Virus record (IMG/VR): IMGVR_UViG_3300037200_000103
Location: 1-28,157 of that record
Length of the DNA stretch: 28,157 bases
Direction: 5' to 3' (one strand)
Source of the DNA: a virus
The position numbers and the translations under genes are program-made. This document shows positions 8,138 to 22,842 of this stretch, piece by piece (within the stretch, counting starts at the first letter, position 1; each line of letters opens with the position of its first letter). The notes under the pieces are model-generated. The model had not been told where the DNA came from. It saw nothing but the letters and a program-made list of their open reading frames with translations, and did not search any database.

Positions 8138-8879
8138 CCGACACCTTGGCTTTCAGCATCTCGCGCAGCGCTTCCATCTCGTCTTGCGTGAGTCCGGACA
8201 GGAACGCCGGAACGCCGGGGTCCTTCGCCGCGCCACGAACGCGATGCCCCTCGGGGATGGGGTCGTACAACTGCGAGTCATCGAACTGCCAGAACGAGTA
8301 CGGGCGAATCACGACCTCCTCGCCCTCGTACTTGATCGGCATCATGGCTTGGTTGAGCGGGCGCAGCGCCACCTTGGGCATTTGCGGAGGCCCGATGCGC
8401 GAGGTGTTGCGCGGGTCCGCCGCGACGTTCGGCAGATCGTAACCGTGCCAGAACTGCGCGAGGCGCGGGCGCTCGTTGGCTTGCGTCCATCCGACGATGC
8501 CGTTCTTGGGCTCGACGCGCGGAGCCATGAAGTAGCCGAACGCGATGAACGCGGCGTGTTGGCGCACGTCGGGCAGGATCTCTTTGCTTTTCTTGCCCTG
8601 AAGATGCGCGTTGATGTTCGCCGGCATAAAGAAGCTGTCGCGCTCCGGGTCCCCGAAAATCGCGGGCGCGTCGTCCGGATACATGATCGGGACGCCTGGG
8701 AACCAGGGCCCCTCATCGTCGGGGTCATGCGGATTGAACGAGAGGTTCCGGCGGGGTTCCGTTGTGCCTTGACGCCAGCGCAAACCGCCACCGCGCCACG
8801 GAGCTTCCAGCGTGACTTTGACATGCGTGACCCGATCCCAATCGACCAGGGTCAGAGGCTCCATGGGTGCGATGTTCAT
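8124..8879 (-). CDS. Hypothetical head-tail block protein, 251 aa
   Basis: No family recognised. The sequence is rich in Pro, Trp and aromatic residues with long charged segments; it has no signal peptide or membrane span, and ends with a helical KAKVSGAKK tail. Notable segments are FNPHDPDDEGPWFPG and FWQFDDSQLYDPIPEGHRV. It starts at an ATG overlapping the stop of the 26-aa basic peptide as ATGA. Being between decoration and adaptor genes, it is probably a minor capsid or connector protein; that is inference only. Confidence 0.65.
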   Translation of the reverse strand: MNIAPMEPLTLVDWDRVTHVKVTLEAPWRGGGLRWRQGTTEPRRNLSFNPHDPDDEGPWFPGVPIMYPDDAPAIFGDPERDSFFMPANINAHLQGKKSKEILPDVRQHAAFIAFGYFMAPRVEPKNGIVGWTQANERPRLAQFWHGYDLPNVAADPRNTSRIGPPQMPKVALRPLNQAMMPIKYEGEEVVIRPYSFWQFDDSQLYDPIPEGHRVRGAAKDPGVPAFLSGLTQDEMEALREMLKAKVSGAKK

Positions 8880-8956
8880 TTCCGCGATCTCGACTTTCTG
8901 ACTTCGCGCATCCCGCGTTTGGACATGCGCTTCATGCGGCGCGCTCCGGGGGCCAT
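8876..8956 (-). CDS. 26-aa Arg/Lys/Met-rich micro-protein
   Basis: Reads MAPGARRMKRMSKRGMREV followed by RKSRSRK. Eleven of its 26 residues are Arg or Lys. It is placed by two overlaps: its ATG shares bases with the stop of the 45-aa basic gene (TAATG at 8958-8954), and its TGA overlaps the ATG of the 251-aa gene (ATGA at 8879-8876). Overlaps at both ends in the same strand argue for translation. The product would bind nucleic acid or an acidic partner; function unknown. Confidence 0.5.
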   Translation of the reverse strand: MAPGARRMKRMSKRGMREVRKSRSRK

Positions 8957-9093
8957 TACTTGCGCGCCTTCATCTTCCGTTTGCCCTTGCGGCTGTGCTT
9001 CTTGCGCCCAGACTTGCGTCCGCCGCCATCCTCCATGCCGTCTTTCTCGTCGTGACGACCGAACGTCGCCTCGTTTTCGGGCCCATTTCTCAT
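8956..9093 (-). CDS. 45-aa protein with acidic head and Lys/Arg tail
   Basis: First half is acidic/polar (MRNGPENEATFGRHDEKDGMED), second half almost only Gly, Lys, Arg, Ser (GGGRKSGRKKHSRKGKRKM). Ribosome binding site AAGGAG lies about 6 bases upstream of the ATG at 9093. The TAA overlaps the next ATG (TAATG). No family recognised. The basic tail resembles DNA-condensing or capsid-interior tails; a minor head protein or a packaged basic peptide are possibilities. Confidence 0.62.
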   Translation of the reverse strand: MRNGPENEATFGRHDEKDGMEDGGGRKSGRKKHSRKGKRKMKARK

Positions 9094-9103
9094 GGGTTAC
9101 TCC

Positions 9104-9973
9104 TTAGGCTTGGATGTTGACGTATGCGGCAACCAGCGCCGATTCCGTGGTTCCGGCGCCCGCAACCGAGATGAGCAGCGAAGCGTTTGCCGCGCTCGTG
9201 CGCGTATCGGTGATGCGGAATCCGCCCGCGTGCGCATTCGCTAGGGCCACGGAGAAGGTCGGATACGAGATGGAACCGATCGAGACGGACTCTTGTACGC
9301 CCGAGGCCAGCGAGTCGATCAAGACGATGGTGTTCGGCGTGATGGACTGAAGGCTGTTCGGGACGACGGACACGACGCCCGGACCCATCGCCGCACCTGC
9401 GCCGCCGGCCGGAATGTTCTGGCCGCTGACGATGAACGATTCCGTGGTGTTGATGGCCGTGGCCAGGGCTTGGCCCACGGTGCTGCCGATCGCCGCAGAG
9501 CCCGCGATCGCAAAGGCGTTCGAGCTGTTCGTGACGAGCTGGGCGCCAACAGTCACGTTCGTGGTGGCGTTGGTGCGGTTCGTTCCGGCCCACACATACG
9601 CCCAGCCGAGTTGACAGACCGTGACCAGCACGGTGAGCGGGGCTCCCGTGAGGTTCGTGTACGTCGGCACGCCGTTGACGTAGGTGATAGGAAACTTGAC
9701 CGCAGGGACGGGACCATTGATCGCGGCGATGACGCCGAACAAGTCCCCGGCGTTCGCCGAGGTACACGCGACGAGCCGCTCGCAGAGTGGGAGGGCTGCG
9801 CCGTTGTTGGGCACGTTGTTGTCCGGTCCGAACTGCGTGACGTCCAGACACATCGGCTGCCCGATCTTGAGCGTGCCGTTGGCCGCGACGACGACCTGCG
9901 CCTGTTCATCATCAACGCCCCAATTTGCATATGGGCCGTCTGTTACGCGAGACGGGCCTTTGCCAGTACTCAC
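9104..9973 (-). CDS. Capsid-associated (decoration-like) protein
   Basis: 289 aa, strongly beta-prone, rich in Ala, Val, Thr, Asn and Gly, with no charged coiled region and no membrane span. N-terminal section includes QAQVVVAANGTLKIGQPMCL, the C-terminal part repeats VVSVVPNSLQSITPNTIVLIDSLASG. It starts with GTG at 9973 directly after the 83-aa gene's stop. Lying two genes after the major capsid protein, it is most likely a decoration, head-fibre or minor capsid protein. The exact family is not recognised. Confidence 0.68.
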   Translation of the reverse strand: MSTGKGPSRVTDGPYANWGVDDEQAQVVVAANGTLKIGQPMCLDVTQFGPDNNVPNNGAALPLCERLVACTSANAGDLFGVIAAINGPVPAVKFPITYVNGVPTYTNLTGAPLTVLVTVCQLGWAYVWAGTNRTNATTNVTVGAQLVTNSSNAFAIAGSAAIGSTVGQALATAINTTESFIVSGQNIPAGGAGAAMGPGVVSVVPNSLQSITPNTIVLIDSLASGVQESVSIGSISYPTFSVALANAHAGGFRITDTRTSAANASLLISVAGAGTTESALVAAYVNIQA

Positions 9974-10225
9974 TTAGTTGCCCCCGGTGTTGAGCTTGTT
10001 GCGGAACACGACTTTGGCCCCGCCGCGACCTTTGGCGCCTTGCGTCGGAAGCATCTGCGACCCGATCACTTTGTGGTTGCCATACGTTGGCGAGAAAGGC
10101 GCGCTCGTCGTAATGTCGCCCATGAAGCCCTCGACATCGGTGCCGATGCCTCCCGAGGTAACGATGCCTTCGGTGCGTCCTCTTTTGGCGGCGTTGTCCC
10201 GCCCGCTGTGAGACTCTTTGGCCAT
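9974..10225 (-). CDS. Small basic protein next to capsid gene
   Basis: 83 aa, MAKESHSGRDNAAKRGRTEG onward, Gly-rich and basic with no membrane span. It begins 3 bp after the capsid stop and ends flush with the next GTG. Another of the short Lys/Arg-rich proteins of this operon. A head-completion or minor decoration role is possible from position; no motif supports it. Confidence 0.65.
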   Translation of the reverse strand: MAKESHSGRDNAAKRGRTEGIVTSGGIGTDVEGFMGDITTSAPFSPTYGNHKVIGSQMLPTQGAKGRGGAKVVFRNKLNTGGN

Positions 10226-10228
10226 GAG

Positions 10229-11254
10229 TTAACCCCCTGAGTTCCACAGCACCCCAGGGGCTGCGGGCTTGAAGTTCACGAGGTTACACCCAAGGTGGAT
10301 TCTCGTGAAGTAGGTGTTGTTGGTCTGGGATTTCTGCCATTCCTCGACGTCGAAGTACGCACCGCGCAAGACGACGAGTTTGAGATACCGGCTGTTGAGG
10401 CCGTAAATGAAGCCCCCCGAGCCCGTCCCGGTTGAGGGCGAAGCGACACCCGTTGGCACGTTCGAGTCGATGAACAGGGGGCCTGAGTTGAACGACACGT
10501 CCACAGAGCCGGTCGTCCGGGCAAGATCGGGTTGGATGTAGCGGTCCAGCGTCGTGAGCAGTGCGATGACGGAGGCGTAATTCAGCCGGTTCGCCATGTA
10601 GAAATCGGGGCGCGCGTTGTCGATCTGCGCGGCGATATCGAGCGTCTGCATGTTGCCGAGCAGCGAGCCCGTGACGTTGTAGTTCGTTTGCGTGGCGCAA
10701 CCCCAAAGGTTGCCGACCGCACCCGCCGTCACCGGGATGCCTGCATACGTCGGGACCACCGTGCCGTTGTCGATCGACCCAGCCAGGCCATCGACGGCCA
10801 GCGGGTTGAGCAAGAACGTGTTGGTAATCCAGGCCGTCGCGAGGCCTTGCACGATCGACATTTTGGTGATGTCGAGTTGCGCGGTGACGTAGTTGGCAAC
10901 GGCGTCGGGCGAGCCGTCATTCATCAGCACGTCGGTGAACAGCACGACCAGCGCGTCGTCCAGGAACTTCCAGTCGAGCGCGGCGGTGTAGACGTTGTTG
11001 TTGAGTGAGCCGATGGGCAAGTCTTGGTCGCCCGCATACCACACGGTGTTGGGCGATTTGCCGATGTTGACGGTCCACGTTGCCGCAAGTCCGCCGTCCA
11101 CTTCATCGACCATCTCGCGCTGCCGCAAGAAGTCGAGTCCCTTCATGGACTGGAACACGAGATCGATCACGAAGTCCGTGAGCGAGTGATCGCGGTTAAG
11201 CGAGTTCAAAGTGTTCGTAAATTGGTAGCCTGAGGCGAAGGATGGCGCTGCCAT
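10229..11254 (-). CDS. Major capsid protein (HK97 fold)
   Basis: 341 aa. Directly downstream of the scaffold gene and in the length range of podovirus capsid proteins. Typical features are an N-terminal helical arm (residues 1-35), then a long section with TWTVNIGKSPNTVWYAGDQDLP resembling the E-loop/P-domain start, helix-rich A-domain segments (NYVTAQLDITKMSIVQGLATAWI; ARPDFYMANRLNYASVIALLTTLDRY) and a late beta section ending in YFTRIHLGCNLVNFKP. Ribosome binding site GAGAGGA sits about 7 bases before the ATG, one of the clearest in the operon, as expected for the most abundant protein. Confidence 0.88.
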   Translation of the reverse strand: MAAPSFASGYQFTNTLNSLNRDHSLTDFVIDLVFQSMKGLDFLRQREMVDEVDGGLAATWTVNIGKSPNTVWYAGDQDLPIGSLNNNVYTAALDWKFLDDALVVLFTDVLMNDGSPDAVANYVTAQLDITKMSIVQGLATAWITNTFLLNPLAVDGLAGSIDNGTVVPTYAGIPVTAGAVGNLWGCATQTNYNVTGSLLGNMQTLDIAAQIDNARPDFYMANRLNYASVIALLTTLDRYIQPDLARTTGSVDVSFNSGPLFIDSNVPTGVASPSTGTGSGGFIYGLNSRYLKLVVLRGAYFDVEEWQKSQTNNTYFTRIHLGCNLVNFKPAAPGVLWNSGG

Positions 11255-11257
11255 AGG

Positions 11258-11926
11258 TTATCCTCTCTGCGCAGCGCGCATGTTGTCTGCGAGGCGCTTC
11301 CGCATGGAACTGAGCGTTGTGGCTTTTTCTTGGCGACTCTCGCCGGGAACGCCAGGCGCAGCCGCGTCGCCGCGTAGCGAGGTAGGTGGAGCTTTCTTGG
11401 CCGGAGGGGCGACGAAAAGGTCGCCCTCGGCTTTGTACGCATCTTCCAGCGATAGCCCGCGCATTTGCGCGATGCTGGCAAGCATCAGAACGCCCGCGTT
11501 GTTGTTGCGCGCCAATTCAGGGCGCTCAGCCACAAGGCGCTGGGCGTAGGCCAGATTGGCCGCCGTCGCCGCCGCTTCTTGGTCTTTCTTAGCCTGCTCT
11601 TTGGCGGTCCGCTCCGAGTTGACGTACTCAAGAACGGGCGTCAATTCTTTGCCGACTTCTTCGCGGAGCAGCGCGAGTTCCGGCGTGTACTGCGGCTTTT
11701 GCTTTTCCAGGCGCTCGTTGTACGTTTCGAGCGCGGACTTCATAAACGTGCGCCGGTCGTCGTCTGAGACGATCGGCTCGATGAGATCGGCGTAGGGTTC
11801 GAGCTGGGCCATCGTGCGCTCGTAGGCGCTCACGCGATTGCGCAACTCCTCGTAATCCGAAGGATACGTGACCGCAGGAGCGGTTGACTCCGGCGTAGCT
11901 TGTGGTGAGGGGTCAGTGACGCTCAT
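11258..11926 (-). CDS. Capsid scaffolding protein
   Basis: 222 aa, predicted almost wholly helical and charged. A Pro/Ser/Thr-rich start is followed by coiled-coil-like segments (LRNRVSAYERTMAQLEPYADLI; LETYNERLEKQKPQY; NSERTAKEQAKKDQEAAATAANLAYAQRL) and a basic C-terminal end (SSMRKRLADNMRAAQRG), the part of scaffolds that binds the capsid protein. It ends 3 bp before the capsid start. TAGGAG lies about 10 bases before the ATG. Composition, length and order fit scaffold well; no primary-sequence motif is available for this group. Confidence 0.82.
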   Translation of the reverse strand: MSVTDPSPQATPESTAPAVTYPSDYEELRNRVSAYERTMAQLEPYADLIEPIVSDDDRRTFMKSALETYNERLEKQKPQYTPELALLREEVGKELTPVLEYVNSERTAKEQAKKDQEAAATAANLAYAQRLVAERPELARNNNAGVLMLASIAQMRGLSLEDAYKAEGDLFVAPPAKKAPPTSLRGDAAAPGVPGESRQEKATTLSSMRKRLADNMRAAQRG

Positions 11927-11945
11927 GCGGTCATTCTCCTACGGG

Positions 11946-11993
11946 TTACTTGCGGTGGCGCTTTTTGCGGCCACCCTTGTGGCGACGAGCCAT
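11946..11993 (-). CDS. 15-aa basic micro-protein upstream of scaffold
   Basis: MARRHKGGRKKRHRK, with nine Arg/Lys and two His among 15 residues. Supported by a strong ribosome binding site, AAAGGAG about 7 bases before the ATG at 11993, by its isolated place between two larger genes, and by its likeness in composition to the other basic micro-proteins of the operon. The next gene has its own Shine-Dalgarno after this stop. It could be a translated leader instead of a functional peptide. Confidence 0.5.
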   Translation of the reverse strand: MARRHKGGRKKRHRK

Positions 11994-12021
11994 GGGCAAC
12001 TCCTTTCGTCATAACAACGGC

Positions 12022-12432
12022 CTACGCAGCGGGCGGCATTTGCGGCGGACCGCCCATGCCTGGCTGCGGAGGTACTGCCGGTGCGCCCATCCCTTGCGGT
12101 CCTGGCGGTGGGGGACTGCCCGCTAACCCCGGTGCTCCGGTCGGCGGGAAACTTTGGGTCGCTTCCTGGAGCGACTGCATCACGGCTGAACCGTCGAACT
12201 TGAGGAGCGCCTTGTTCAGCGTTCCGATCATCGCGTTCAGCGTCATCTGCATAGGCTGGTCGTTGGTGAATTGCGTGGCGCGCTCAAGAGACACCGACGC
12301 GGCTTTGATATGCTCGAGTGCCTGCTGGTCGGGATTGAGTCGCTCGAACGGGGTGCCGGGCTTCTGCGCGGGCTGCGCCGTCTTGAGTGCGGCGACCAAC
12401 GCGGCAGGGTTCTGCACCGCGTTTGGGCCCAT
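12022..12432 (-). CDS. Pro/Gln/Gly-rich protein between portal and scaffold
   Basis: 136 aa from the ATG at 12432 (MGPNAVQNPAALVAALKT). A GTG at 12468 would add 12 residues, but it abuts the U-tract of the intrinsic terminator, so the shorter form is preferred; GCAGGTG upstream of 12432 is a weak ribosome binding site. The middle (about 25-105 of the long form) is helical (LEHIKAASVSLERATQF; MTLNAMIGTLNKALLKF), and the C-terminal 40 residues are Pro/Gly/Met-rich. No family recognised. It is a candidate minor scaffold or head protein by position. Confidence 0.66.
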   Translation of the reverse strand: MGPNAVQNPAALVAALKTAQPAQKPGTPFERLNPDQQALEHIKAASVSLERATQFTNDQPMQMTLNAMIGTLNKALLKFDGSAVMQSLQEATQSFPPTGAPGLAGSPPPPGPQGMGAPAVPPQPGMGGPPQMPPAA

Positions 12433-12468
12433 CTGCACCTGCCCGGTTCCAGCCAACGAAAACCCCAC

Positions 12469-12502
12469 AAAAGAAAACGCCGAACTCCAAAGGAGCCCGG
12501 CG
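12469..12502 (-). terminator. Intrinsic terminator between packaging and capsid blocks
   Basis: Minus-strand RNA reads CGCCGGGCTCC, loop TTT, GGAGTTCGGCG, then TTTTCTTTT. The 11-bp stem is complete if two G-U pairs are allowed. On the plus strand the same positions give A-C mismatches and no T-run follows, so the hairpin is specific for leftward transcripts. It would cut the late transcript after the portal and 57-aa genes and before scaffold and capsid. Confidence 0.8.
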
Positions 12503-12538
12503 CGGATGTTCTACCGCTACCACTGACTGACGCGCCTA

Positions 12539-12712
12539 TTATACGGGCTTAGGGCCGGGTCCTGTCAACCGCACCTGCTCGAACCGCTCGACACACGTCG
12601 GACGCCCGGCTTCATACCGAATTGTGATGTAGCCATACTGCACGGCGTTGACCAAATGCAACCGCACGAGATCCGCCAACGGCAACTCGGGCTCGGGCTT
12701 TCGCTCGATCAT
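12539..12712 (-). CDS. 57-aa protein, DUF2292-like
   Basis: Starts MIERKPEPELPLADLVRLHL at an ATG overlapping the portal stop as ATGA (12712-12709) and ends at the TAA at 12541-12539. The core VQYGYITIRYEAGRPTCVER followed by FEQVRL resembles, from memory, the small DUF2292-type pattern (helix, YGS-x-T-I, short acidic turn, hairpin, IE-x-x-E-K-x-R). The codon pattern is protein-like and the following DNA is non-coding until the terminator. Function unknown; similar small proteins are common next to phage head genes. Confidence 0.7.
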   Translation of the reverse strand: MIERKPEPELPLADLVRLHLVNAVQYGYITIRYEAGRPTCVERFEQVRLTGPGPKPV

Positions 12713-14667
12713 CCGTGCGGGCTCGGCGCTTTAGGCGGTCCCGCTTTCTTCGCCGTCTGGCGCGTTCTCGGGGGCGGGCTGGCTGCCGGACCCAGCGCGC
12801 CCTGCGGACCCGTCGCAGCGGCGATGCGAGCCAGAATCTGGCGCCAATTCGGCTTCTTGACTTCCTCGTAATAGCTCTGCCGGTCGATGAGACCTTGCTG
12901 GTATTCCGTTAAGGACCGCGTGGCCTTCGATGATTCGGACCACGCCATCGTCGAGCCAGTCGCAACCGTGTACGAGAAGGAACCCTGGAGCAACGGACTC
13001 GACGCCCTCTCCCATGTGATATTCCCTTCGTTGTCCTCTACCGCAATAGCGTGGCGTTCATCATAAAACTCTTGAGCAAATTGGCCACAAATCTCGGCCC
13101 ATTCAGCCAAGGTCGTCTCCAATCGTTGCGTACACTCCACGAGAGTTGAACCACCAATTTCCGCCAGCGTATCGTAACCTGCTGCAGAATCAACCCGTCC
13201 GGCAGATTCTCCCTGCATAACACCAGTGGCCCCCATGATCCTTTCCATAAAGAGTACGGCGCGGTCGAGTAACGTGAAGAACTGCGGGTCAAGTGGACTT
13301 ACCTCCAGGGCTTTCATTTGCGTAATATCGTTCACGGGAATGACTTGCCCGATGCCCGGTATGATCTGCGTAGATGTAATGCCAGATGACGTGCCCGCAA
13401 GCCAAGCGCAAAGCGCACCGTAGCGCAACGTATCCGTTACCGTGGAGAGCCCGACGTTGACTAAGGCTTGGAGGTGCTCCGTTTGCAGCAAGCTGCCACG
13501 GCCCAAGATTCCGTCGAGTGGCTCGATGTCCGTGTAGAACGCGAATGGGAGGCGGTAATCCCATGGGCGGTCCTCCAAGATCGTTCCATCACCGCCAGCC
13601 ACGCAGATCGTCGTGCGCCGCCACTGCGGATACTTGCGCACGAGCTGCATCTCGGTGACATCTTCCATGACCAGCTCGAACTTCGGAAGCGCGACGAATG
13701 AGCCGTCCGGCATCGGGTGCATCTCCGGCTCGCCCTCGGTGAACTGCGGCATCCCGGATTCCTGGTCGCGCGCAATCTCTTGCTTGATGCGGCCCAGCGG
13801 GTCGCGCACCGGGACTTCTTTCTCGGCCAGGGTGTGGTCGCGGTGGTACACCTCCATGATGTCCACGTCCTCAGTTCCCGGTGACGTGATCGCAATCTCG
13901 CCGGCAAACGAGGTGACCACGGGCTTGCCGTTCACGATCGACGCGCCCGGACTCGGCAGATACGAGGTTTTCCACGGCGTTGAGATCGGGGTGCCCGCGT
14001 TCTGGAGCGTGGCCTGTTTCTTGGACGAGAGCGAGTTGACGAGTTCTTGAATCTTGTCAGCGGCGTCCGGATAGTAGAGCATCGCACGCGAGCGGTTCAT
14101 CGTCGCTCGATTGCCGCAAAACTCCATCGCGCGCACATCGCTCACGCGGTTATCGCAAATGAGATTCCAGCCAGGGATGACGTCCGTCGCGATGCCGCCT
14201 GCGCCCCCGTTCATCACCGGGTCCCACGACACTTTGAAGGCGCACGTTCTCGTCGCATTCGCCAGCGTGGCGAGTCTGCGCGTTTTGGCTTTCATGTTGG
14301 TTGAGCGCCACAGATCGCGAATCACTTGCGCCATGAGTTGCGCGGCGCGCTGATCGCCAACATCGCGCGGCTCGAGCACCGGAATCGGGTCTTGCTTCGT
14401 CATGATCGCCACTTTGTGACGGAGCATCGCGCCTGCAAGATTGGCCGTGATGGCGGCGCGATCGCTCGGCATCGGGCGGTCCCAATGCTGGGCGTAGGTG
14501 ATCTTCGCGCCGAGACGATCATGGCGGCGGCGGGCTTCTTCGCCCAGGTCCGCCGTGCGAACGTAGGTTAGGATACGCCGCTTGAGGCGCTCCTCCCAAT
14601 CATTCGTGCTGCCCTTACCGCCTTTGCGAACGCTCATCGCGGCTGGGCCGATCGACATCACGCTCAC
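12709..14667 (-). CDS. Portal protein
   Basis: 652 aa. Forms the dodecameric ring at the capsid vertex that DNA passes through. The early part (about 30-130) has AAQLMAQVIRDLWRSTNMK and the following RLATLANATRTCAFKVSWDP, which match the portal helix and wing start of podovirus portals. The middle has VIPGWNLICDNRV and long amphipathic helices; the last 60 residues are Pro/Ala/Lys-rich. Length fits T7/P22-type portals (about 530-730 aa). It starts with GTG overlapping the zinc-ribbon gene stop (GTGA) and follows TerL and a small gene in the usual order. Confidence 0.85.
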   Translation of the reverse strand: MSVMSIGPAAMSVRKGGKGSTNDWEERLKRRILTYVRTADLGEEARRRHDRLGAKITYAQHWDRPMPSDRAAITANLAGAMLRHKVAIMTKQDPIPVLEPRDVGDQRAAQLMAQVIRDLWRSTNMKAKTRRLATLANATRTCAFKVSWDPVMNGGAGGIATDVIPGWNLICDNRVSDVRAMEFCGNRATMNRSRAMLYYPDAADKIQELVNSLSSKKQATLQNAGTPISTPWKTSYLPSPGASIVNGKPVVTSFAGEIAITSPGTEDVDIMEVYHRDHTLAEKEVPVRDPLGRIKQEIARDQESGMPQFTEGEPEMHPMPDGSFVALPKFELVMEDVTEMQLVRKYPQWRRTTICVAGGDGTILEDRPWDYRLPFAFYTDIEPLDGILGRGSLLQTEHLQALVNVGLSTVTDTLRYGALCAWLAGTSSGITSTQIIPGIGQVIPVNDITQMKALEVSPLDPQFFTLLDRAVLFMERIMGATGVMQGESAGRVDSAAGYDTLAEIGGSTLVECTQRLETTLAEWAEICGQFAQEFYDERHAIAVEDNEGNITWERASSPLLQGSFSYTVATGSTMAWSESSKATRSLTEYQQGLIDRQSYYEEVKKPNWRQILARIAAATGPQGALGPAASPPPRTRQTAKKAGPPKAPSPHG

Positions 14668-15080
14668 TTCAGAATGTCTTTATACCGGGGCGGGGCTTCC
14701 TTGAAAGCCGAGGTGTCACCGGGACCGATGGGTCGGTGAGGCACGCCCGAATCGACTTCCGCTTTGTACGCAATGGCTTCCGCCGCTTCTTTGTTTGAGG
14801 CGACAAGCTCTGCGGGTGAGATAAACTCCACCCCTTTGCGTGCGGCAAGTTGGTCACGCCCCTCTCTTGTCTCTGGCATCGGCGCGCCAAGCGCCGTGCT
14901 CCACCCGTTTCCAAGCGGCCCCTTCCACATCCGAAGCCGATCTTCCTGAAACTGCGGGACCTGCGGGACCTTGGGGCGCGGGCGCTGGCAGACCGGGCAG
15001 TCCGCATACGGGCTGAAGCTGATGCGCTCGATCGTCTCGCGCTCCCCGCACACCTGGCAGCGCACAACATAGGTCGGCAT
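14664..15080 (-). CDS. Small zinc-ribbon protein (FmdB-like N-terminus)
   Basis: 138 aa from the ATG at 15080, which overlaps the TerL stop (TAATG). The first 35 residues, MPTYVVRCQVCGERETIERI then SFSPYADCPVCQRP, hold a CxxC...CPxC zinc ribbon like that of FmdB-family regulatory proteins. The rest is charged and Pro-rich, without a known domain. Longer reading frames extending upstream would overlap TerL and are rejected. It could bind nucleic acid or act in packaging, since it lies between TerL and portal. Confidence 0.75.
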   Translation of the reverse strand: MPTYVVRCQVCGERETIERISFSPYADCPVCQRPRPKVPQVPQFQEDRLRMWKGPLGNGWSTALGAPMPETREGRDQLAARKGVEFISPAELVASNKEAAEAIAYKAEVDSGVPHRPIGPGDTSAFKEAPPRYKDILK

Positions 15081-17077
15081 TAGAGTGGCATCTCCGAATT
15101 GAACGGGTTCCACGAACCCTGGTACTTGATCGCGACAAGCTCGGCAATCTTCTTGGGCAACACGGTGTTCGCCGGACCGTCGGCGGCGCTCGAGGCCAAG
15201 TGCAAGTCCCGCGCGCTTGGGATCCGATGGCGATTCTTGCTCAACTCGACCATGAGAATCGGGGTCTGCTCGATCGCCATGACGCACAAGCCGAACGCCA
15301 TCACCCGATCGTCGTAGCGGCCCTTCTGCGCATTGAACGTGAACCCGTCGAGATACGTGTTCTCTTTGCGCTCGAACGTGGACATCTCCGCATACAATTC
15401 TTTGCTCGCGATGCGGATCGTCTGTTCCTCGCATTGGTAGATCATCCCGGAGACGAGAATTTGCTTACTCCGTGGGTTGGTCTCCCATCCCTTTTTGTTG
15501 GAAAACTTGTTGCCTTCGTCCCACTTGGGCCACTTGTACATATACGGATATTGGATGTTGGAGGTGAGTCGCTTAAGGACCACGCTCCCGATTGCGTTAA
15601 TCTCCGGTGTAGCCAGCGCGGTATTGTACCAATAACACGCTGCGGCAATCTCGATGGCGAAGCGCTCGGGGGGCATGGTATCGGTGAACTCTGCGACCTG
15701 ACGACCAGCAGTAACGTCAACCACGCAAATGCAAGAATTATCCCCATCCTCAAGGCCGAGCGCCGGGTCAGCCCCGACCACGTATTTGTGCCCATCCACG
15801 GGGGGAGCCCAGACCAGCCACTTCCCATGCGCGTGTACCTCGAAGTCAACGTGCGTGATCGGCGTGAAAGAGCCTCGTATTTCCACCTTCGGATGGAGTA
15901 TGATGCGCGCCGGCCCATTCGTAATCACGGGATGGCCGTTGACCATTTGCTTGGACCAAATCTCTTTGGCGAGTTCCGGCGCTTCGTGAATACACTCGCC
16001 CAAGAAATCCGAGTATTGCTTGAACACGGACTTGGACGAAAGCATCCAACACGAGATGTCGTCCTCGGGGTACTCTTGCCGGAAGCGCGCTTCGTCGCCG
16101 CGGAACTGCGTGTTGATCGTCATGCGTCGCCAATACATTTGCTCGCGCGTCACGGGCACGCCGCCGCCGTCGCGCTCCTCGTACTCGTGCATCCGAATGC
16201 GCGTCAACTTTTTTTGTAGAGATTTTTCTTCGTTGTTGAGCTTGAACTCTTGCGGAGCTGTGGCGCAGTACTGCTCCTCAAATAAGAACCACGGGAAGAA
16301 CACCGCCGTGAACGGCTCGAACCGTCCATTCTTGGCGTCCATGTACATATCGTGGAATTCGTTTTGGCCTTTGGGCGTCGATTCGATGATGACTGACGAC
16401 CGCAAGATCGCTTCGCTGCCGAACGTCGGAAGCTGCGGCAGCAGCGCGCCGTTGAGTTCCGTTGAGTTCGGGTACATCGCCGATTCGGTTTCGAGAACGT
16501 GCGTGACTTGCTGGCCTCGAGGGTCCATGTTCTTTGCCAAGTGGATAAGGCAATACGAGCGCCGGTCAGCAAAATACACCTCGCCGCGAGGGATGGAAGC
16601 GCCGTGGTTGCCTTCCCGGAGATCGGGGCGGAACATCTCGGGGAGTTCATCGTAGAACACGCGCATCGTCTCGATCATGGTTTCGGCGGTAGGAAGTTGG
16701 TGCGCCACGACCATCGTTTGAAGATTCGTCTGCCGCCACATTTGCCAGAACAACCACGCGCACCAAAACGTGGACATGCCCGCTTGGCGGAATTTCAGAA
16801 TGACGAACCACGGCGGTTTGCCCGCGTTGATCGCATCGCACATCTCGCGCCACATGCGCCGTTGCACTTGGTTCCAAAGGAACTCCGTCGTGTAGCCGCC
16901 GCCTTTGGGGCGCACTTTGAGGAGCATCCCGCAGAATGTCGGGAAGTCTTGTTGGAAAATGCGGATGAGTTGTTGGAGAACGTCTTGGTTCTTGTTGTCC
17001 TCGGCATAGTGGTTCCAGAGTGCGAGGGCTTCAGGATCGCACTGCTGGACGAGCGTCCAACTCACGGCGACATCCAC
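15080..17077 (-). CDS. terL: Terminase large subunit
   Basis: 665 aa. Packaging motor plus nuclease. ATPase part: adapted Walker A RQAGMST (about residues 97-103), Walker B VTHVLETE (191-198, with Glu198 as candidate catalytic base), and coupling motif IESTPKG (231-237). Nuclease part, RNase H fold: Asp437 in VVGADPALG, and a C-terminal acidic pair in GRYDDRVMAFG (Asp589/590). All of these are visible, so it should be active. Start taken as the GTG at 17077; GTG at 17065, which would overlap the preceding stop as GTGA like its neighbours, is equally plausible. It is preceded by a small acidic gene and, two genes further, by the probable small subunit. Confidence 0.92.
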   Translation of the reverse strand: MDVAVSWTLVQQCDPEALALWNHYAEDNKNQDVLQQLIRIFQQDFPTFCGMLLKVRPKGGGYTTEFLWNQVQRRMWREMCDAINAGKPPWFVILKFRQAGMSTFWCAWLFWQMWRQTNLQTMVVAHQLPTAETMIETMRVFYDELPEMFRPDLREGNHGASIPRGEVYFADRRSYCLIHLAKNMDPRGQQVTHVLETESAMYPNSTELNGALLPQLPTFGSEAILRSSVIIESTPKGQNEFHDMYMDAKNGRFEPFTAVFFPWFLFEEQYCATAPQEFKLNNEEKSLQKKLTRIRMHEYEERDGGGVPVTREQMYWRRMTINTQFRGDEARFRQEYPEDDISCWMLSSKSVFKQYSDFLGECIHEAPELAKEIWSKQMVNGHPVITNGPARIILHPKVEIRGSFTPITHVDFEVHAHGKWLVWAPPVDGHKYVVGADPALGLEDGDNSCICVVDVTAGRQVAEFTDTMPPERFAIEIAAACYWYNTALATPEINAIGSVVLKRLTSNIQYPYMYKWPKWDEGNKFSNKKGWETNPRSKQILVSGMIYQCEEQTIRIASKELYAEMSTFERKENTYLDGFTFNAQKGRYDDRVMAFGLCVMAIEQTPILMVELSKNRHRIPSARDLHLASSAADGPANTVLPKKIAELVAIKYQGSWNPFNSEMPL

Positions 17078-17406
17078 GGTGAGGGATTGGGGGCGTTCGG
17101 GTCATACGTCGTGGGGCGCGGTGGATTTTCTTCTTCTTGGTCTTGTGCAGCGGCGCGCTCGCGCGCTTCATGCACGCGGCGTAGTGTCATCTCGGCGATT
17201 TCATCCGGGTCGGTGCTAAAGGGCATGCCCATCTGCTCGCCAGGTTGCGGTTCTTCGACCAGCGGCCCCAAGAACTCGGCGACAGCTTTGCGCACGTCGT
17301 CTTGCTTGATGACCTGCGGCCGTTTTTCTTTGGGCTCTTTGCTGGCGAGTAAGCCTTCCATGAGGCCCTTCGCAAAAGCGGAAGCGATGGATTCAGGAGT
17401 GCTCAT
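17062..17406 (-). CDS. Small acidic hypothetical protein before TerL
   Basis: 114 aa. N-terminal helix (ESIASAFAKGLMEGLLASK), then QDDVRKAVAEFLGPLVEEP, then acidic and Pro-rich with a helix EIAEMTLRRVHEARERAAAQ. No HTH or zinc motif. Its end overlaps the TerL start by 16 bp or, with the GTG at 17065, by 4 bp. GAGGACC precedes the ATG. Its place suggests a packaging or TerL accessory protein; nothing in the sequence shows a function. Confidence 0.65.
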   Translation of the reverse strand: MSTPESIASAFAKGLMEGLLASKEPKEKRPQVIKQDDVRKAVAEFLGPLVEEPQPGEQMGMPFSTDPDEIAEMTLRRVHEARERAAAQDQEEENPPRPTTYDPNAPNPSPWMSP

Positions 17407-17412
17407 TGGTCC

Positions 17413-19686: not shown

Positions 19687-19921
19687 TGAACCCCGCGCTC
19701 GGACCGTTCACGGCTTTGGTCGCAACGGAAAGAAAGACGGTCGAGACTTGGGGGGCGGCATCGCAGCCGAGCGGGAGCAATGCCGCGCCGCCACTCACCG
19801 GGTTATTGGGGCAGTTTGGTCCGCCGCACCAGACCGCTTGCCCGCACACGCTGCACGTCGGATTGACGGCGGGAAGCGGAGGCCCCCCGCCTTTGACCGT
19901 CTGGGAGATGTACGTGGTCAC
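19664..19921 (-). CDS. Small Cys-rich protein
   Basis: 85 aa starting with GTG, which overlaps the preceding stop (GTGA). Residues 22-40 hold a CxxC...CxxxxC cluster (CSVCGQAVWCGGPNCPNN), consistent with a zinc-binding knuckle. The second half, after PVSGGAALLPLGCD, is an apolar strand-like part (STVFLSVATKAVNGPSAGF). The latter resembles short decoration or fibre-tip segments, but no family is recognised. It ends inside the fibre gene start. Confidence 0.62.
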   Translation of the reverse strand: MTTYISQTVKGGGPPLPAVNPTCSVCGQAVWCGGPNCPNNPVSGGAALLPLGCDAAPQVSTVFLSVATKAVNGPSAGFNVVAAGA

Positions 19922-20460
19922 GCATTGCCTTTTTTGCCTGGGAGCGCATCGAGCGAGCGGGCTTTGATCGCCGGCGGTTCATCGGTCACCAGGGCCTTGG
20001 CCACCAGCACGCGCTGGTCGATCTGCACTTGCTTTGGCGCTTTGGGAATCGCCAGGGCCAAATATTTCGAGAGCATCTCTTGGCTGGGTGGAAGCTTCTC
20101 GCCGTCGTGCTCGACGTTGCCGTGGATCCAGTCCGACATCTTTTGCAAGCCCGTCGCCAAAGTGAGATCGCCGCCGGTCGCAACATCTGTTGCTTCGCGG
20201 AACGCTTGGCTGATGTCCGGGCGCGAGATGAGCTTCTCGACTTTGCGCGCGATCGTTTTCTCGGTCAAGGGGTAGCCGTTCGAGGCGCGCCAATCCATCC
20301 GGCGGCCCGCTTGGAGGGCGGCCGCCATGACCTCCTGGCCTTTGGTGAGTTCCTCAAGAAAGTACCCGACGAACCGGACGTAGCGCTCTTTGCGGATACC
20401 CGTCTTGGCTTGCCACTGCTCGAGCGTGAGCGGGGTGAAGTCGCGATTGGGATTCGCCAT
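19918..20460 (-). CDS. terS: Probable terminase small subunit
   Basis: 180 aa. The segment ASNGYPLTEKTIARKVEKLI followed by SRPDISQAFREAT (about residues 58-92) matches the pattern of small-terminase N-terminal helix-turn-helix domains, in which a GY-x-x-x-x-T turn is followed by a helix and a (L/I)xRPxIxxA box. The rest is helical and charged, ending with a basic tail. Position upstream of TerL supports it, though a fibre-like gene lies between the two, which is unusual. Starts directly after the preceding stop (TGA then ATG). Alternative: another DNA-binding head protein. Confidence 0.62.
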   Translation of the reverse strand: MANPNRDFTPLTLEQWQAKTGIRKERYVRFVGYFLEELTKGQEVMAAALQAGRRMDWRASNGYPLTEKTIARKVEKLISRPDISQAFREATDVATGGDLTLATGLQKMSDWIHGNVEHDGEKLPPSQEMLSKYLALAIPKAPKQVQIDQRVLVAKALVTDEPPAIKARSLDALPGKKGNA

Positions 20461-20682
20461 TCATCCGTGATAGGGGTTAAGAAACCCCGGATCCCCGCCC
20501 CAGATCCATGTGCCGCCCACGCGAATGCGTAGCGGTCGCAGCATCACACCGAGGTCAATCTTGATCGGCGTCCAGCGCTGCGTCGCAACCATACAAAGCA
20601 GCATCCATTGCCAACCGCTCAGCGTCTGCTTGTGATCGACTTCGAACGACACACGTGCGTGGAACGCCAGATGATGTTTCAC
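20461..20682 (-). CDS. Small hypothetical protein
   Basis: 73 aa from the GTG at 20682 (MKHHLAFHARVSFEVDHKQT as initiator-translated). Trp/aromatic-rich with possible beta hairpins (TPIKIDLGVML, IRVGGTWIWGGDPGF) and no membrane span long enough. Longer in-frame starts would overlap the preceding gene and are not used. No family recognised; it is immediately followed by the probable TerS. Confidence 0.5.
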   Translation of the reverse strand: MKHHLAFHARVSFEVDHKQTLSGWQWMLLCMVATQRWTPIKIDLGVMLRPLRIRVGGTWIWGGDPGFLNPYHG

Positions 20683-20689
20683 GTGTGAC

Positions 20690-20941
20690 TTACTCGTCGG
20701 CTCCGGGGCCGCCCAGCATGTACCCGGCGCCTCGGATCCCGCGCTTGGCCTGTCGAACATCCTCGCCCACTTCGCGACCAATCGCACCGCCAATCTCATC
20801 CATCTTTTTCTTGGCGCGACCGCCGAGAATCTGCGCGCCTTGGTACGCGCTCTTGAGCAGGTCGTCTTTCTTGCCCTGGGCGCTGGCCTTCATGGCCGCA
20901 CCCTTACTCAGCATCTTCTTCTTGGGCTTAACCTTCGGCAT
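20690..20941 (-). CDS. Small Lys-rich, helical protein
   Basis: 83 aa from the ATG at 20941 (MPKVKPKKKMLSKGAAMKAS). Basic N-terminus, then helices (DDLLKSAYQGAQIL; KKKMDEIGGAIGREVGEDVRQAKRGIRGAG). Its start overlaps the end of the Cys-rich gene by 14 bp. No motif known. A Gly-spaced amphipathic helix at about 52-70 could contact membranes or nucleic acid. Confidence 0.6.
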   Translation of the reverse strand: MPKVKPKKKMLSKGAAMKASAQGKKDDLLKSAYQGAQILGGRAKKKMDEIGGAIGREVGEDVRQAKRGIRGAGYMLGGPGADE

Positions 20942-21062
20942 AGAACGCCTCACGAATCGCAAGGCCGCGCTGGTCGGCATGGAAGGGCGAGCCGTCGCGA
21001 TACCAGCCGCGGCAGACGCACCGACACTCGCCCTGACAGCACTCGCACCAAGCCTTAGACAC
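20928..21062 (-). CDS. 44-aa Cys-rich micro-protein
   Basis: Starts with GTG at 21062 overlapping the preceding stop region, and reads MSKAWCECCQGECRCVCRGW then YRDGSPFHADQRG and on to the TAA at 20930-20928. Six Cys within 12 residues (CxCCxxxxCxCxC) could bind a metal ion or form disulphides. The C-terminus (GLAIREAFYAEG) is helical. No strong ribosome binding site; translation by coupling to the preceding gene is possible. Treated as likely because the frame is closed to other signals and the Cys spacing looks selected. Confidence 0.45.
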   Translation of the reverse strand: MSKAWCECCQGECRCVCRGWYRDGSPFHADQRGLAIREAFYAEG

Positions 21063-21351
21063 CCGGCGTATCCCAATGGCTGCCCACGTACTTCACGCCC
21101 GTGGCATCCTGAAACGCTCGCAAGAGCGCCGTCACAGCCAGCCCCGCCGGCCCTTTCTTCAGGAGGTGATCCGGCATCTCGCCCAAGTGCTCGAGCGCCG
21201 TCACGCTGGCATTGACCAGCATCCGCTCCTTGTCCGAGAGTCCGCTGAGGATCGCTGCTCGTGTCTCGACGTTCGTGGATCGTTCAGCAACCAGCGAGAC
21301 CGGGCTCGGTCCCGGCGAGAGCTTAACGCGGAGCGGCGTGATTGGACTCAC
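21055..21351 (-). CDS. Small hypothetical protein
   Basis: 98 aa, starts at the ATG overlapping the preceding stop as ATGA. Helical middle (SDKERMLVNASVTALEHLGE; GPAGLAVTALLRAFQDATGV). No signal peptide, no cysteine, no known motif. It ends within the start of the Cys-rich micro-gene. Confidence 0.58.
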   Translation of the reverse strand: MSPITPLRVKLSPGPSPVSLVAERSTNVETRAAILSGLSDKERMLVNASVTALEHLGEMPDHLLKKGPAGLAVTALLRAFQDATGVKYVGSHWDTPGV

Positions 21352-21551
21352 GGCTCGTCCAGCCAGACGATCTCGCCACGCGCGAGTTCCACCAGACCCC
21401 GGCGAAACCGCGCCATCAGTTCCGGATCAAGTAAAATCTCAAGCGAAGCGCGCCACTGCTCGATTACGGCTTCGCGCTCATCCGCCGACTTGGCCGCGGC
21501 TAGCTCGGCACGGAACTGGCGCAGTTCCACTTCGTCGAAGCTCACAGTCAT
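21348..21551 (-). CDS. Small helical hypothetical protein
   Basis: 67 aa from the ATG at 21551, which overlaps the preceding stop (ATGA); longer in-frame extensions overlap that gene and are rejected. Highly charged, Glu/Arg/Ala-rich helices (ELRQFRAELAAAKSADEREAV) suggest a coiled coil or a helical bundle. Ends with an ATGA overlap to the next gene. Confidence 0.58.
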   Translation of the reverse strand: MTVSFDEVELRQFRAELAAAKSADEREAVIEQWRASLEILLDPELMARFRRGLVELARGEIVWLDEP

Positions 21552-21814
21552 TCGTACTCTCTCGTACTCTCCAAAAATGACGGCAACGAAGGCGCGTGTG
21601 TGAATCTGGGCCGCCAATCTCGGAACTGACGCTCCAGGTAGTCTACCGCAGCCTCTAGCCCTGGCGCACCCGGGCTCAAGTCCGCTATAAGCACCGCTGC
21701 TGCATTAATTAGCTCCGTTTGAATCAGCCGGGCATCCTCGTCATGCGAGCACTCGCAACAGTGCACCGTGGCGACCGTGGGCACCAACGACGTTTCAGAA
21801 GGGGCCTCCATCAA
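21548..21814 (-). CDS. Small hypothetical protein
   Basis: 88 aa, starting ATG-ATG with ATGA coupling to the preceding membrane gene. Contains CCECSHDE near residue 19, a possible metal site, followed by a helical segment (LIQTELINAAAVLIADLSPG). No recognised family. Confidence 0.55.
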   Translation of the reverse strand: MMEAPSETSLVPTVATVHCCECSHDEDARLIQTELINAAAVLIADLSPGAPGLEAAVDYLERQFRDWRPRFTHAPSLPSFLESTREYE

Positions 21815-22026
21815 AGAGCCCCGACGCTATGGTGACCAAACACAATCCAGATCGTCAGCGCCACCGCAAACGTCACCCACGAACCAACCGCGTTCGGGCC
21901 GCCCAAGGGATACCACGCATTCGCTTTCACCGCCGGGACGAAAAAGCCCAAGACAAACGCCACAACCCACAGTACGCAGTAGATTCCGCAAAACACCACG
22001 AGGCATTGAAGAAGTAGCCCGATCAT
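21811..22026 (-). CDS. Two-helix membrane protein
   Basis: 71 aa from the ATG at 22026 (ATGA overlap with the preceding gene). Two clear hydrophobic spans, LLLQCLVVFCGIYCVLWVVA with FVLGFF following (about residues 4-30), and WVTFAVALTIWIVFG (about 50-64), separated by a polar loop with YPLGGPN. A holin-like hairpin is possible, but it lies at the promoter-proximal end of the late operon, far from the lysis pair, so an early-late membrane role is as likely. Confidence 0.62.
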   Translation of the reverse strand: MIGLLLQCLVVFCGIYCVLWVVAFVLGFFVPAVKANAWYPLGGPNAVGSWVTFAVALTIWIVFGHHSVGAL

Positions 22027-22211
22027 CTGATCCCCGCCGCCCGCTTGAGGGGCACTTGTCCCGGCAGCGGCAGGTCCTCGACCGGCAAGTCGCGTGGGAG
22101 CCCAAGCAACACGCGAGCCTCGCCGCGCGTCAGCAGTCCCTGCATATAACACCGCATCACTGACTCGAACTGCTCAGGGGTCAGCAGTTGCTTCGATCCT
22201 GGCAGACTCAT
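22023..22211 (-). CDS. Small protein with EAR-LLGL motif
   Basis: 62 aa from the ATG at 22211, coupled (ATGA) to the 29-aa gene upstream. After SKQLLTPEQFESVMRCYMQG it has LLTRGEARVLLGLPRDLPVED, a helix-turn pattern (G-(I/L)-(I/L)-x-x-x-EAR-x-x-LGL) shared with the 63-aa gene at 22592 and similar to a short motif in portal C-termini. No catalytic residues. Confidence 0.6.
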   Translation of the reverse strand: MSLPGSKQLLTPEQFESVMRCYMQGLLTRGEARVLLGLPRDLPVEDLPLPGQVPLKRAAGIR

Positions 22212-22297
22212 CGACAACCCTCGCAGGCGTAGCCGCGCTCGCCAGCCAGCAGGCGCTTGAAGCACCGCGGCAGGTGGCGTATGACGCGGCCCCTCAT
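22208..22297 (-). CDS. 29-aa basic, Cys-containing micro-protein
   Basis: MRGRVIRHLPRCFKRLLAGE followed by RGYACEGCR. Its ATG overlaps the stop of the 24-aa gene (ATGA at 22297-22294) and its TGA overlaps the next ATG (22211-22208), so it is fixed at both ends. Nine Arg/Lys/His, three Cys (last two as CxxC). Function unknown; it could bind metal or nucleic acid. Confidence 0.5.
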   Translation of the reverse strand: MRGRVIRHLPRCFKRLLAGERGYACEGCR

Positions 22298-22368
22298 CCG
22301 AGCAACAACCAAGCGAGCCCAACGACGATGCTCAGAATATGCGGATACGCGTTCTCCGGAATGATCAT
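22294..22368 (-). CDS. 24-aa hydrophobic micro-protein
   Basis: MIIPENAYPHILSIVVGLAW followed by LLLG, a short single membrane segment (about residues 11-24). ATGA overlaps at both ends place it between the coiled-coil gene and the 29-aa gene. A small membrane peptide or a coupled leader; no family known. Confidence 0.48.
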   Translation of the reverse strand: MIIPENAYPHILSIVVGLAWLLLG

Positions 22369-22592
22369 CCCAGCCGCCTTTCGAGCGAGAGCACACGGCC
22401 AACGGTATCTCGCACGAATGCGTCGTGTTGGTCGCGCATCTGCATCACTTCTCTCTCAAGGCCGCAGATGCGATCGCGTAGTGTTTGTTCTGCCGCCAGG
22501 TTGTCGGCCTGCGGCGGCAGGGGCACATCGTATTCGCTCCTTTGATTAACCGCCGCGTACCCGACGGTCTGCGGCACGTCATATGCTCCCAT
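22365..22592 (-). CDS. 75-aa coiled-coil protein
   Basis: MGAYDVPQTVGYAAVNQRSE then a Leu/Glu/Arg-rich helical part with ICGLEREVMQMRDQHDAF and VGRVLSLERRLG (about residues 35-75), which looks like a coiled coil. It starts at ATG 22592, overlapping the preceding stop as TGATG. Function unknown. Confidence 0.6.
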   Translation of the reverse strand: MGAYDVPQTVGYAAVNQRSEYDVPLPPQADNLAAEQTLRDRICGLEREVMQMRDQHDAFVRDTVGRVLSLERRLG

Positions 22593-22783
22593 CACTTTTC
22601 CTCCCAGGGCGCGAGCCCCAACATCGCACGAGCCTCTGCCGTGCCAATTATCCCACGCCCATGCAACTCCAAGATCCGCTCGAACAGATACAGGTCCGGC
22701 AGAAACTCGCCCGACGAATCAGCCACACGACCAGGATGCTTCTCGCGTAGCTCGCCCACGAACTCCTTGCTCATGTCAATCAT
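22592..22783 (-). CDS. 63-aa protein with EAR-MLGL motif
   Basis: MIDMSKEFVGELREKHPGRV start; the C-terminal IIGTAEARAMLGLAPWEE is a variant of the motif seen in the 62-aa gene at 22023. The start at 22783 is fixed by the ATGA overlap with the 20-aa gene. A small helical protein, possibly paralogous to the 62-aa protein; role unknown. Confidence 0.6.
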   Translation of the reverse strand: MIDMSKEFVGELREKHPGRVADSSGEFLPDLYLFERILELHGRGIIGTAEARAMLGLAPWEEK

Positions 22784-22842
22784 CGGCGACGCGCGCGGGC
22801 CTTCTTCTTGCGCTTAAGTCGCTGCCGGTCGAATTTCGTCAT
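22780..22842 (-). CDS. 20-aa basic micro-protein, first gene of late operon
   Basis: Begins MTKFDRQRLKRKKK and ends ARARRR; 12 of its 20 residues are Arg or Lys. GGAGAG lies about 8 bases before the ATG at 22842, and its TGA overlaps the next ATG (ATGA). It opens the chain of coupled small genes. Possible roles are a nucleic-acid-binding peptide or a translated leader that sets expression of the operon; the sequence does not decide. Confidence 0.52.
   Translation of the reverse strand: MTKFDRQRLKRKKKARARRR

Follow-up and report, generated by a model that had tools for sequence, protein, structure and literature searches.

Comparative analysis of a 28,157-base viral contig (IMG/VR virus record IMGVR_UViG_3300037200_000103, positions 1 to 28,157; hereafter the window) points to a gene of only 15 amino acids (aa) within the tailed-phage late block on its minus strand. 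This gene (11946..11993, minus strand), whose product MARRHKGGRKKRHRK is strongly basic, has a counterpart in the same junction in 12 of the 13 phages compared. Its position and composition are conserved, a Shine-Dalgarno (SD) motif precedes it, and it evolves under purifying selection at the level of the peptide. We propose, with about an even chance of being correct as judged from sequence comparison, that the product acts as a nucleic acid-binding or head-interior peptide of head assembly or DNA packaging.

Conservation of the 15-aa gene

Relatives of the window were gathered by scanning IMG/VR with the capsid and portal proteins, followed by alignments, which yielded 12 more phages, all of them uncultured contigs: L004 (= L002), L005, L006, L007, L008 (= L003), L009, L012, L018, L025, L027, L030 and L048. 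The capsid protein of L004 is 97% identical to that of the window and those of the 11 other relatives show 39-48% identity to these two; outside L004, the proteins flanking the 15-aa gene fall to 23-32% identity with their counterparts in the window. Across these divergent members, the position of the micro-gene within the portal-to-capsid block is fixed (12/13 phages), in a common order that runs from an open reading frame (ORF) of 150-180 aa through the micro-gene and a scaffold-like gene to the major capsid gene. Each of the 12 phages has in this junction one short basic frame of 13-23 aa with an SD-like motif upstream (12/12), and these frames are here called family I. In the window the motif is AGGAG (12000..12004, minus strand), placed 6 nucleotides (nt) 5' of the ATG.

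The peptides of the window and L004 are the same (MARRHKGGRKKRHRK), and those of the other phages are MRRHHKGRGRHGRRK (L005), MRRHHGGRKGRHGRRK (L007), MRRHGRGRHKRGRKHK (L009), MHIMRRGRRGKHRKEHFRKK (L006, 17 aa when read from the second ATG), MKRHGRSKKARKESRKHHR (L008), MRRHKRGKKGRKK (L012), MRKHKRGKKGRKK (L027), MLDSMIAGYERRRGGRKHKGRHK (L018), MFDNSVVMPERRKGRKRK (L030) and MLEVFRRRGGRMKHGRKK (L048). Their net charge is about +5 to +9; in 9 of the 12, lysine, arginine and histidine make up 68-77% of the residues, and 9 of the 12 contain one hydrophobic residue or none. What is kept is a pattern of arginine, histidine and glycine, which is more than a run of generic basic codons. The L012 and L027 peptides have 12 of 13 residues in common, yet the capsid proteins of the two phages are 48% identical. 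The L012 junction also holds a second, tandem basic frame of about 30 aa (MAAAVPGARFVGGGKRVGPKKKKRGSGRRK, approximately L012:9169-9261).

Such frames are rare elsewhere. Under a criterion of an ATG with an SD, a length of 12-25 aa and at least 38% lysine plus arginine (K/R), only 16 frames qualify in 227.7 kb (the window and 11 relatives, both strands), and 11 of these, from 10 phages, fall in the family I junction, although the 13 junctions sum to about 1.4 kb. Dinucleotide shuffles of the 13 junctions give an expectation of 0.011 junctions with such a frame against the 12 observed. A degenerate pattern combining the SD with MR[basic]H..G matched three contigs in the whole of IMG/VR, every one of this phage family, and a 13-aa pattern matched two. 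Moreover, the window and L004 differ in the 15-aa gene by three synonymous and no nonsynonymous changes, and in three close pairs taken together (window/L004, L005/L007 and L012/L027) 10.8 differences are synonymous and 5.2 nonsynonymous, which corresponds to a ratio of nonsynonymous to synonymous change per site (pN/pS) of 0.14 (P 9e-5 if both rates were equal); an indel of one whole codon adds to these. An overlapping 28-aa frame across the 15-aa gene was rejected, as the window and L004 differ in its amino acids. On these comparative grounds the 15-aa frame is a real gene, and so are the 45-aa and 26-aa frames described below; the 15-aa gene is very probably translated.

Candidate functions of the peptide

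Under the proposed mechanism, the 15-aa frame would be a genuine, translated and trans-acting gene of the head-assembly block, and its product an unstructured, strongly cationic peptide produced together with the scaffold and the capsid protein. Such a peptide could bind, by charge, to nucleic acid or to the interior of the scaffold or shell and would thereby be enclosed in the procapsid or coat the entering DNA, so that neutralisation of phosphate charge might ease packaging. That the frame is translated in vivo and that its product is present in the head, binds DNA and affects packaging are all predictions from nucleotide and peptide sequence. The first-pass annotation, which had called attention to a series of very basic micro-genes, offered two explanations for them, DNA-condensing or head-interior peptides and coupled leader peptides, and the former stands as the best-supported idea in view of the position in the head operon, the strong SD motifs and the conserved basic composition. 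A wider proposal, that a lineage of tailed double-stranded DNA (dsDNA) phages has separate, dedicated genes for protamine-like peptides, the shortest of 13 aa, that are packed together with the genome or coat it, is more tentative and falls somewhat short of an even chance.

Several observations weigh against the head-interior reading. The head modules of P22, lambda, T7, epsilon15 and P2 contain no such gene, which is therefore not a general requirement of motor-driven packaging. The control survey was small, comprising these five phages and three remote ones, and the sole frame in it that met the criterion, in one of the remote phages, is of mixed charge and lies inside an annotated gene. 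Within the family itself, L025 lacks the gene, its junction being 12 nt long, and its neighbouring head proteins contain no replacement basic stretch; the possibility that the peptide had been fused to a neighbour in this phage was rejected on the same ground. The absence looks like a loss because the L025 capsid protein groups with those of L005 and L018 (65-68%), and the family I gene has thus been dispensable at least once. No relative of the family I members of at least 20 aa was detected in Pfam, NCBIfam or PHROGs, the members of 13-19 aa being too short for such searches. Furthermore, the identity of the downstream 222-aa protein (11258..11926, minus strand; homologues at 23-74% identity) as a scaffold is positional and compositional only, with a single weak scaffold match in PHROGs, obtained by one family member. 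Literature searches on arginine-rich peptides of tailed-phage heads returned nothing to the point.

Among the alternatives, an unlikely one is that the frame acts in cis, the translation of a polybasic mini-frame tuning the synthesis of scaffold and capsid protein through ribosome slowing or translational coupling, with the product itself irrelevant. The location of the micro-gene directly upstream of the scaffold and capsid genes is compatible with this role, as is the gap of only 3 nt between its stop and the scaffold ATG in L005 and L007, where the spacer holds no separate SD. Across the family, however, the distance from the micro-gene stop to the scaffold start ranges from 3 to 118 nt, several other scaffold genes are themselves preceded by an SD, and the folding energies of the junction RNA (z +0.7 to -2.1) are mostly no better than those of mononucleotide shuffles, which keep base composition only. 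The varied spacing and the lack of an RNA fold signal point to the product, and not the RNA, as what probably counts, and the retention of the arginine, histidine and glycine pattern likewise goes beyond what basic codons as such would demand. For the 15-aa gene, the coupled-leader half of the earlier suggestion is accordingly disfavoured.

An assembly factor that bridges or neutralises acidic surfaces of the scaffold, portal or capsid protein, with no contact to DNA, we consider just as improbable as the leader. The micro-gene directly adjoins the scaffold-like gene, and both the capsid protein (17 K/R and 29 aspartate or glutamate residues, D/E) and the scaffold-like protein (30 K/R, 34 D/E) are acidic; nevertheless, the wide variation in peptide length and exact sequence suits a non-specific role of charge better than a defined interface.

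Slightly less probable again is a trans-acting arginine-rich peptide that binds RNA, like the RNA-binding segment of lambda N, and regulates the head block, for example at a terminator-like hairpin. The length of the peptide fits an RNA-binding arginine-rich motif, and the block is indeed preceded by candidate regulatory sites. In the window, a promoter-like TTGACA-N19-TATAAT (12538..12568, minus strand) is the sole exact match, with 0 expected, and 34 bases past it starts a hairpin of 12 base pairs followed by a U tract (12477..12503, minus strand), the strongest of the region, between the promoter-like site and the 148-aa ORF that opens the block. Ten of the 13 phages (the window, L004, L005, L007, L009, L012, L018, L025, L027 and L030; the hairpin of L018 falls inside a called frame) have such a hairpin close to the first head gene, and in several of them a promoter-like site precedes the hairpin by about 23-64 nt. 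Between the window and L004 the stem shows paired, compensatory changes. Among the phages, however, the stem sequences differ and are unrelated, whereas the peptide motif is kept; L025 has a hairpin and no peptide, and L006, L008 and L048 have the peptide with no detected hairpin. Given the differing stems and the case of L025, the peptide is unlikely to be a dedicated partner of the hairpin, and its gene, moreover, lies downstream of the hairpin that would have to be overcome. The promoter-like site and the hairpin suggest attenuation or antitermination of the head block, which is a separate lead; that the sequence around 12530 is the remnant of a tRNA or another known RNA was considered and rejected.

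A much smaller probability attaches to a role in lysis, in which the cationic peptide would, like a disruptin, damage the outer membrane. Disruptins form an established class of lysis proteins (PMC9239132), and the peptide is likewise small, cationic and of phage origin. Its gene, however, is situated in the head block, with no recognisable lysis gene close by, and the near-absence of hydrophobic residues, unlike in membrane-active cationic peptides, argues against such a role. Least probable of all is that the frames are chance products of GC-rich DNA, which is possible for a 20-aa frame at 22780 that has no counterpart, and which junction enrichment, shuffles and pN/pS contradict for the 15-, 26- and 45-aa frames.

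Other small basic genes and the head block

All four micro-frames singled out by the first-pass annotation (20, 15, 45 and 26 aa) are present, and the strong SD motifs or start/stop overlaps ascribed to them are confirmed. Loss of the frames in close relatives had been named in advance as grounds for rejecting them; the 15-, 45- and 26-aa frames are conserved there with mostly synonymous change, and the 20-aa frame is not. The impression of something beyond chance thus survives, that of one uniform series does not: the 15-aa and 45-aa genes are of different types, each conserved in its own right, and the 26-aa gene accompanies the latter; the 20-aa frame lacks support, and the 83-aa protein at 9974 has no relation to the others.

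The 45-aa gene (8956..9093, minus strand; family II) encodes a protein with an acidic N-terminus and a basic C-terminus ending in an RKKHGRK-like tail, and has an AGGAG (9100..9104, minus strand) 6 nt before its ATG. It is 84% identical in L004/L002 (pN/pS 0.18), and counterparts of like build occupy the same site in L004/L002, L012 and L048. Similar genes lie between the terminase and portal genes in L005, L007 and L009 and upstream of the portal gene in L018; outside L004/L002, homologies among these genes are suggested but not proven, because the tblastn searches were run with no composition correction. In L002, an additional 155-aa ORF (L002:12179-12646; HNH-endonuclease-like by eye) separates the 290-aa gene from the 45-aa micro-gene; this insertion has displaced the SD of the micro-gene but left the 45-aa frame intact. 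The 26-aa basic gene (8876..8956, minus strand) overlaps both neighbours, its ATG sharing one base with the TAA of the 45-aa gene and its TGA overlapping the next ATG. It is 96% identical in L004, with seven synonymous and two nonsynonymous differences (pN/pS 0.09), and among the relatives was seen in this nearest one only. The 45-aa and 26-aa genes probably encode further peptides of the same sort as the 15-aa gene.

Other small genes of the relatives recall this arrangement. Upstream of the portal gene, L018 has two overlapping basic micro-genes of 42 aa and 20 aa (L018:1879-2066; ATGA overlap), an arrangement like that of the 45-aa and 26-aa genes of the window but in another position. Directly after the terminase gene, L012, L030 and L048 encode a basic-tailed protein of 44-49 aa with the pattern MP..S..QRRYLW..P..A (L012:3056-3199, L030:3694-3843, L048:2748-2882), the L012 copy of which matches phrog_1375 (function unknown; E 1e-4). 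Many relatives have, between the terminase and portal genes, an ORF of 140-151 aa that begins with a pattern resembling MPxYEYxC, judged by eye to be zinc-ribbon-like (L005:9480-9935, L006:9511-9960, L009:9520-9975, L025:6494-6925, L027:6564-6986).

The 20-aa frame (MTKFDRQRLKRKKKARARRR; 22780..22842, minus strand; SD GGAG) is the weakest case: its region is replaced in L004, the closest relative, and tblastn gave no credible match, so that its status as a gene is unsupported. The trend was also said to extend to two larger basic proteins, both of 83 aa, and it does so for one of them. The protein encoded at 20690..20941 (minus strand) has 21 K/R among its 83 residues and aligns with its L004 counterpart over 87 columns at 44% identity (E 7e-15). 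That encoded at 9974..10225 (minus strand), between the capsid gene and the next gene, has 11 K/R against 6 D/E; most relatives have at this position frames of 66-90 aa of similar composition and motifs, and it is an ordinary, mildly basic gene unrelated to the micro-genes.

On the minus strand of the window, the order is the terminase large subunit (15080-17077; weak PF17289), the portal protein (12709..14667; phrog_156, E 4e-24; PF16510 P22_portal), the 148-aa ORF, the 15-aa frame, the 222-aa scaffold-like gene, the major head protein (10229..11254; phrog_9953 major head protein, E 6e-15), the 83-aa ORF at 9974, a 289-aa ORF (at 9104), the 45-aa and 26-aa genes and a 251-aa ORF. The 148-aa ORF (12022..12468), with a proline- and glycine-rich tail and here termed the 'pre-scaffold' ORF, has homologues of 146-181 aa (8 aligned phages, 23-95% identity) and no PHROG family match. 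No protease was recognised in the head block of the window, and an AlphaFold2 model of the capsid protein from an 8-row alignment had a mean confidence score (pLDDT) of 29 and was not used. Searches by tblastn with the capsid and portal proteins of the window gave no match in 50,697 phage records, 84,980 prokaryote genomes held no relatives of the capsid protein, and the proteins of the relatives matched only remote phages among the phage records, the retrieved regions of which contain no micro-gene.

Comparison with known systems

Genes of 13-16 codons lie under the usual length cut-offs of gene calling, and a conserved head gene of such size is therefore easily missed. A review of short, easily missed phage genes (PMC11323111) covers, in the text searched, lysis-lysogeny and host-expression proteins, with no capsid or arginine-rich peptides mentioned in that text. 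The head modules of other phages could be screened by the same recipe, which combines a syntenic junction, an SD, composition and synonymous change. Were the peptide to enter the head, it would call into question the idea that tailed phages can do without a DNA-condensing peptide and would offer a minimal natural system to test charge neutralisation in motor-driven packaging. Should the protamine-like reading be true, phages thought to pack by motor force alone would have an equivalent of the microvirus J protein and of adenovirus Mu, encoded by one of the shortest conserved protein genes known.

Three systems invite comparison. The T4 internal head proteins, from a tailed phage like the window, are packed with the dsDNA, their lysines contacting phosphates (PMC3012670), but are much larger and folded, with a capsid-targeting sequence that is removed by the head protease. 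Adenovirus Mu (protein X), a 19-aa arginine-rich peptide present in 100-300 copies per virion, helps condense dsDNA (PMC7998265). Family I resembles it in size and composition; however, Mu is cut by a protease from a 79-aa precursor in a eukaryotic virus, whereas each family I peptide is encoded by a separate gene with an SD in front of it. In microviruses, the proteins J (phiX174) and VP8 (gokushoviruses) reside inside the capsid, are rich in arginine and lysine and guide the DNA during packaging (PMC11281519, PMC13386984); like family I, they are very small, highly basic and encoded among capsid genes. In contrast to the window, with its P22-type portal and tailed-phage major head protein, these are single-stranded DNA phages with another capsid, and VP8 of SpV4 has 38 aa and a hydrophobic C-terminus that is buried; most family I peptides, at 13-20 aa, lack such a terminus. 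No sequence relation to J/VP8 was found in Pfam, NCBIfam or PHROG for the members of at least 20 aa. Membership of the J/VP8 group fails on virus type, and the best reading, by analogy, is that family I, although not homologous by any test run, would work like J/VP8 or Mu.

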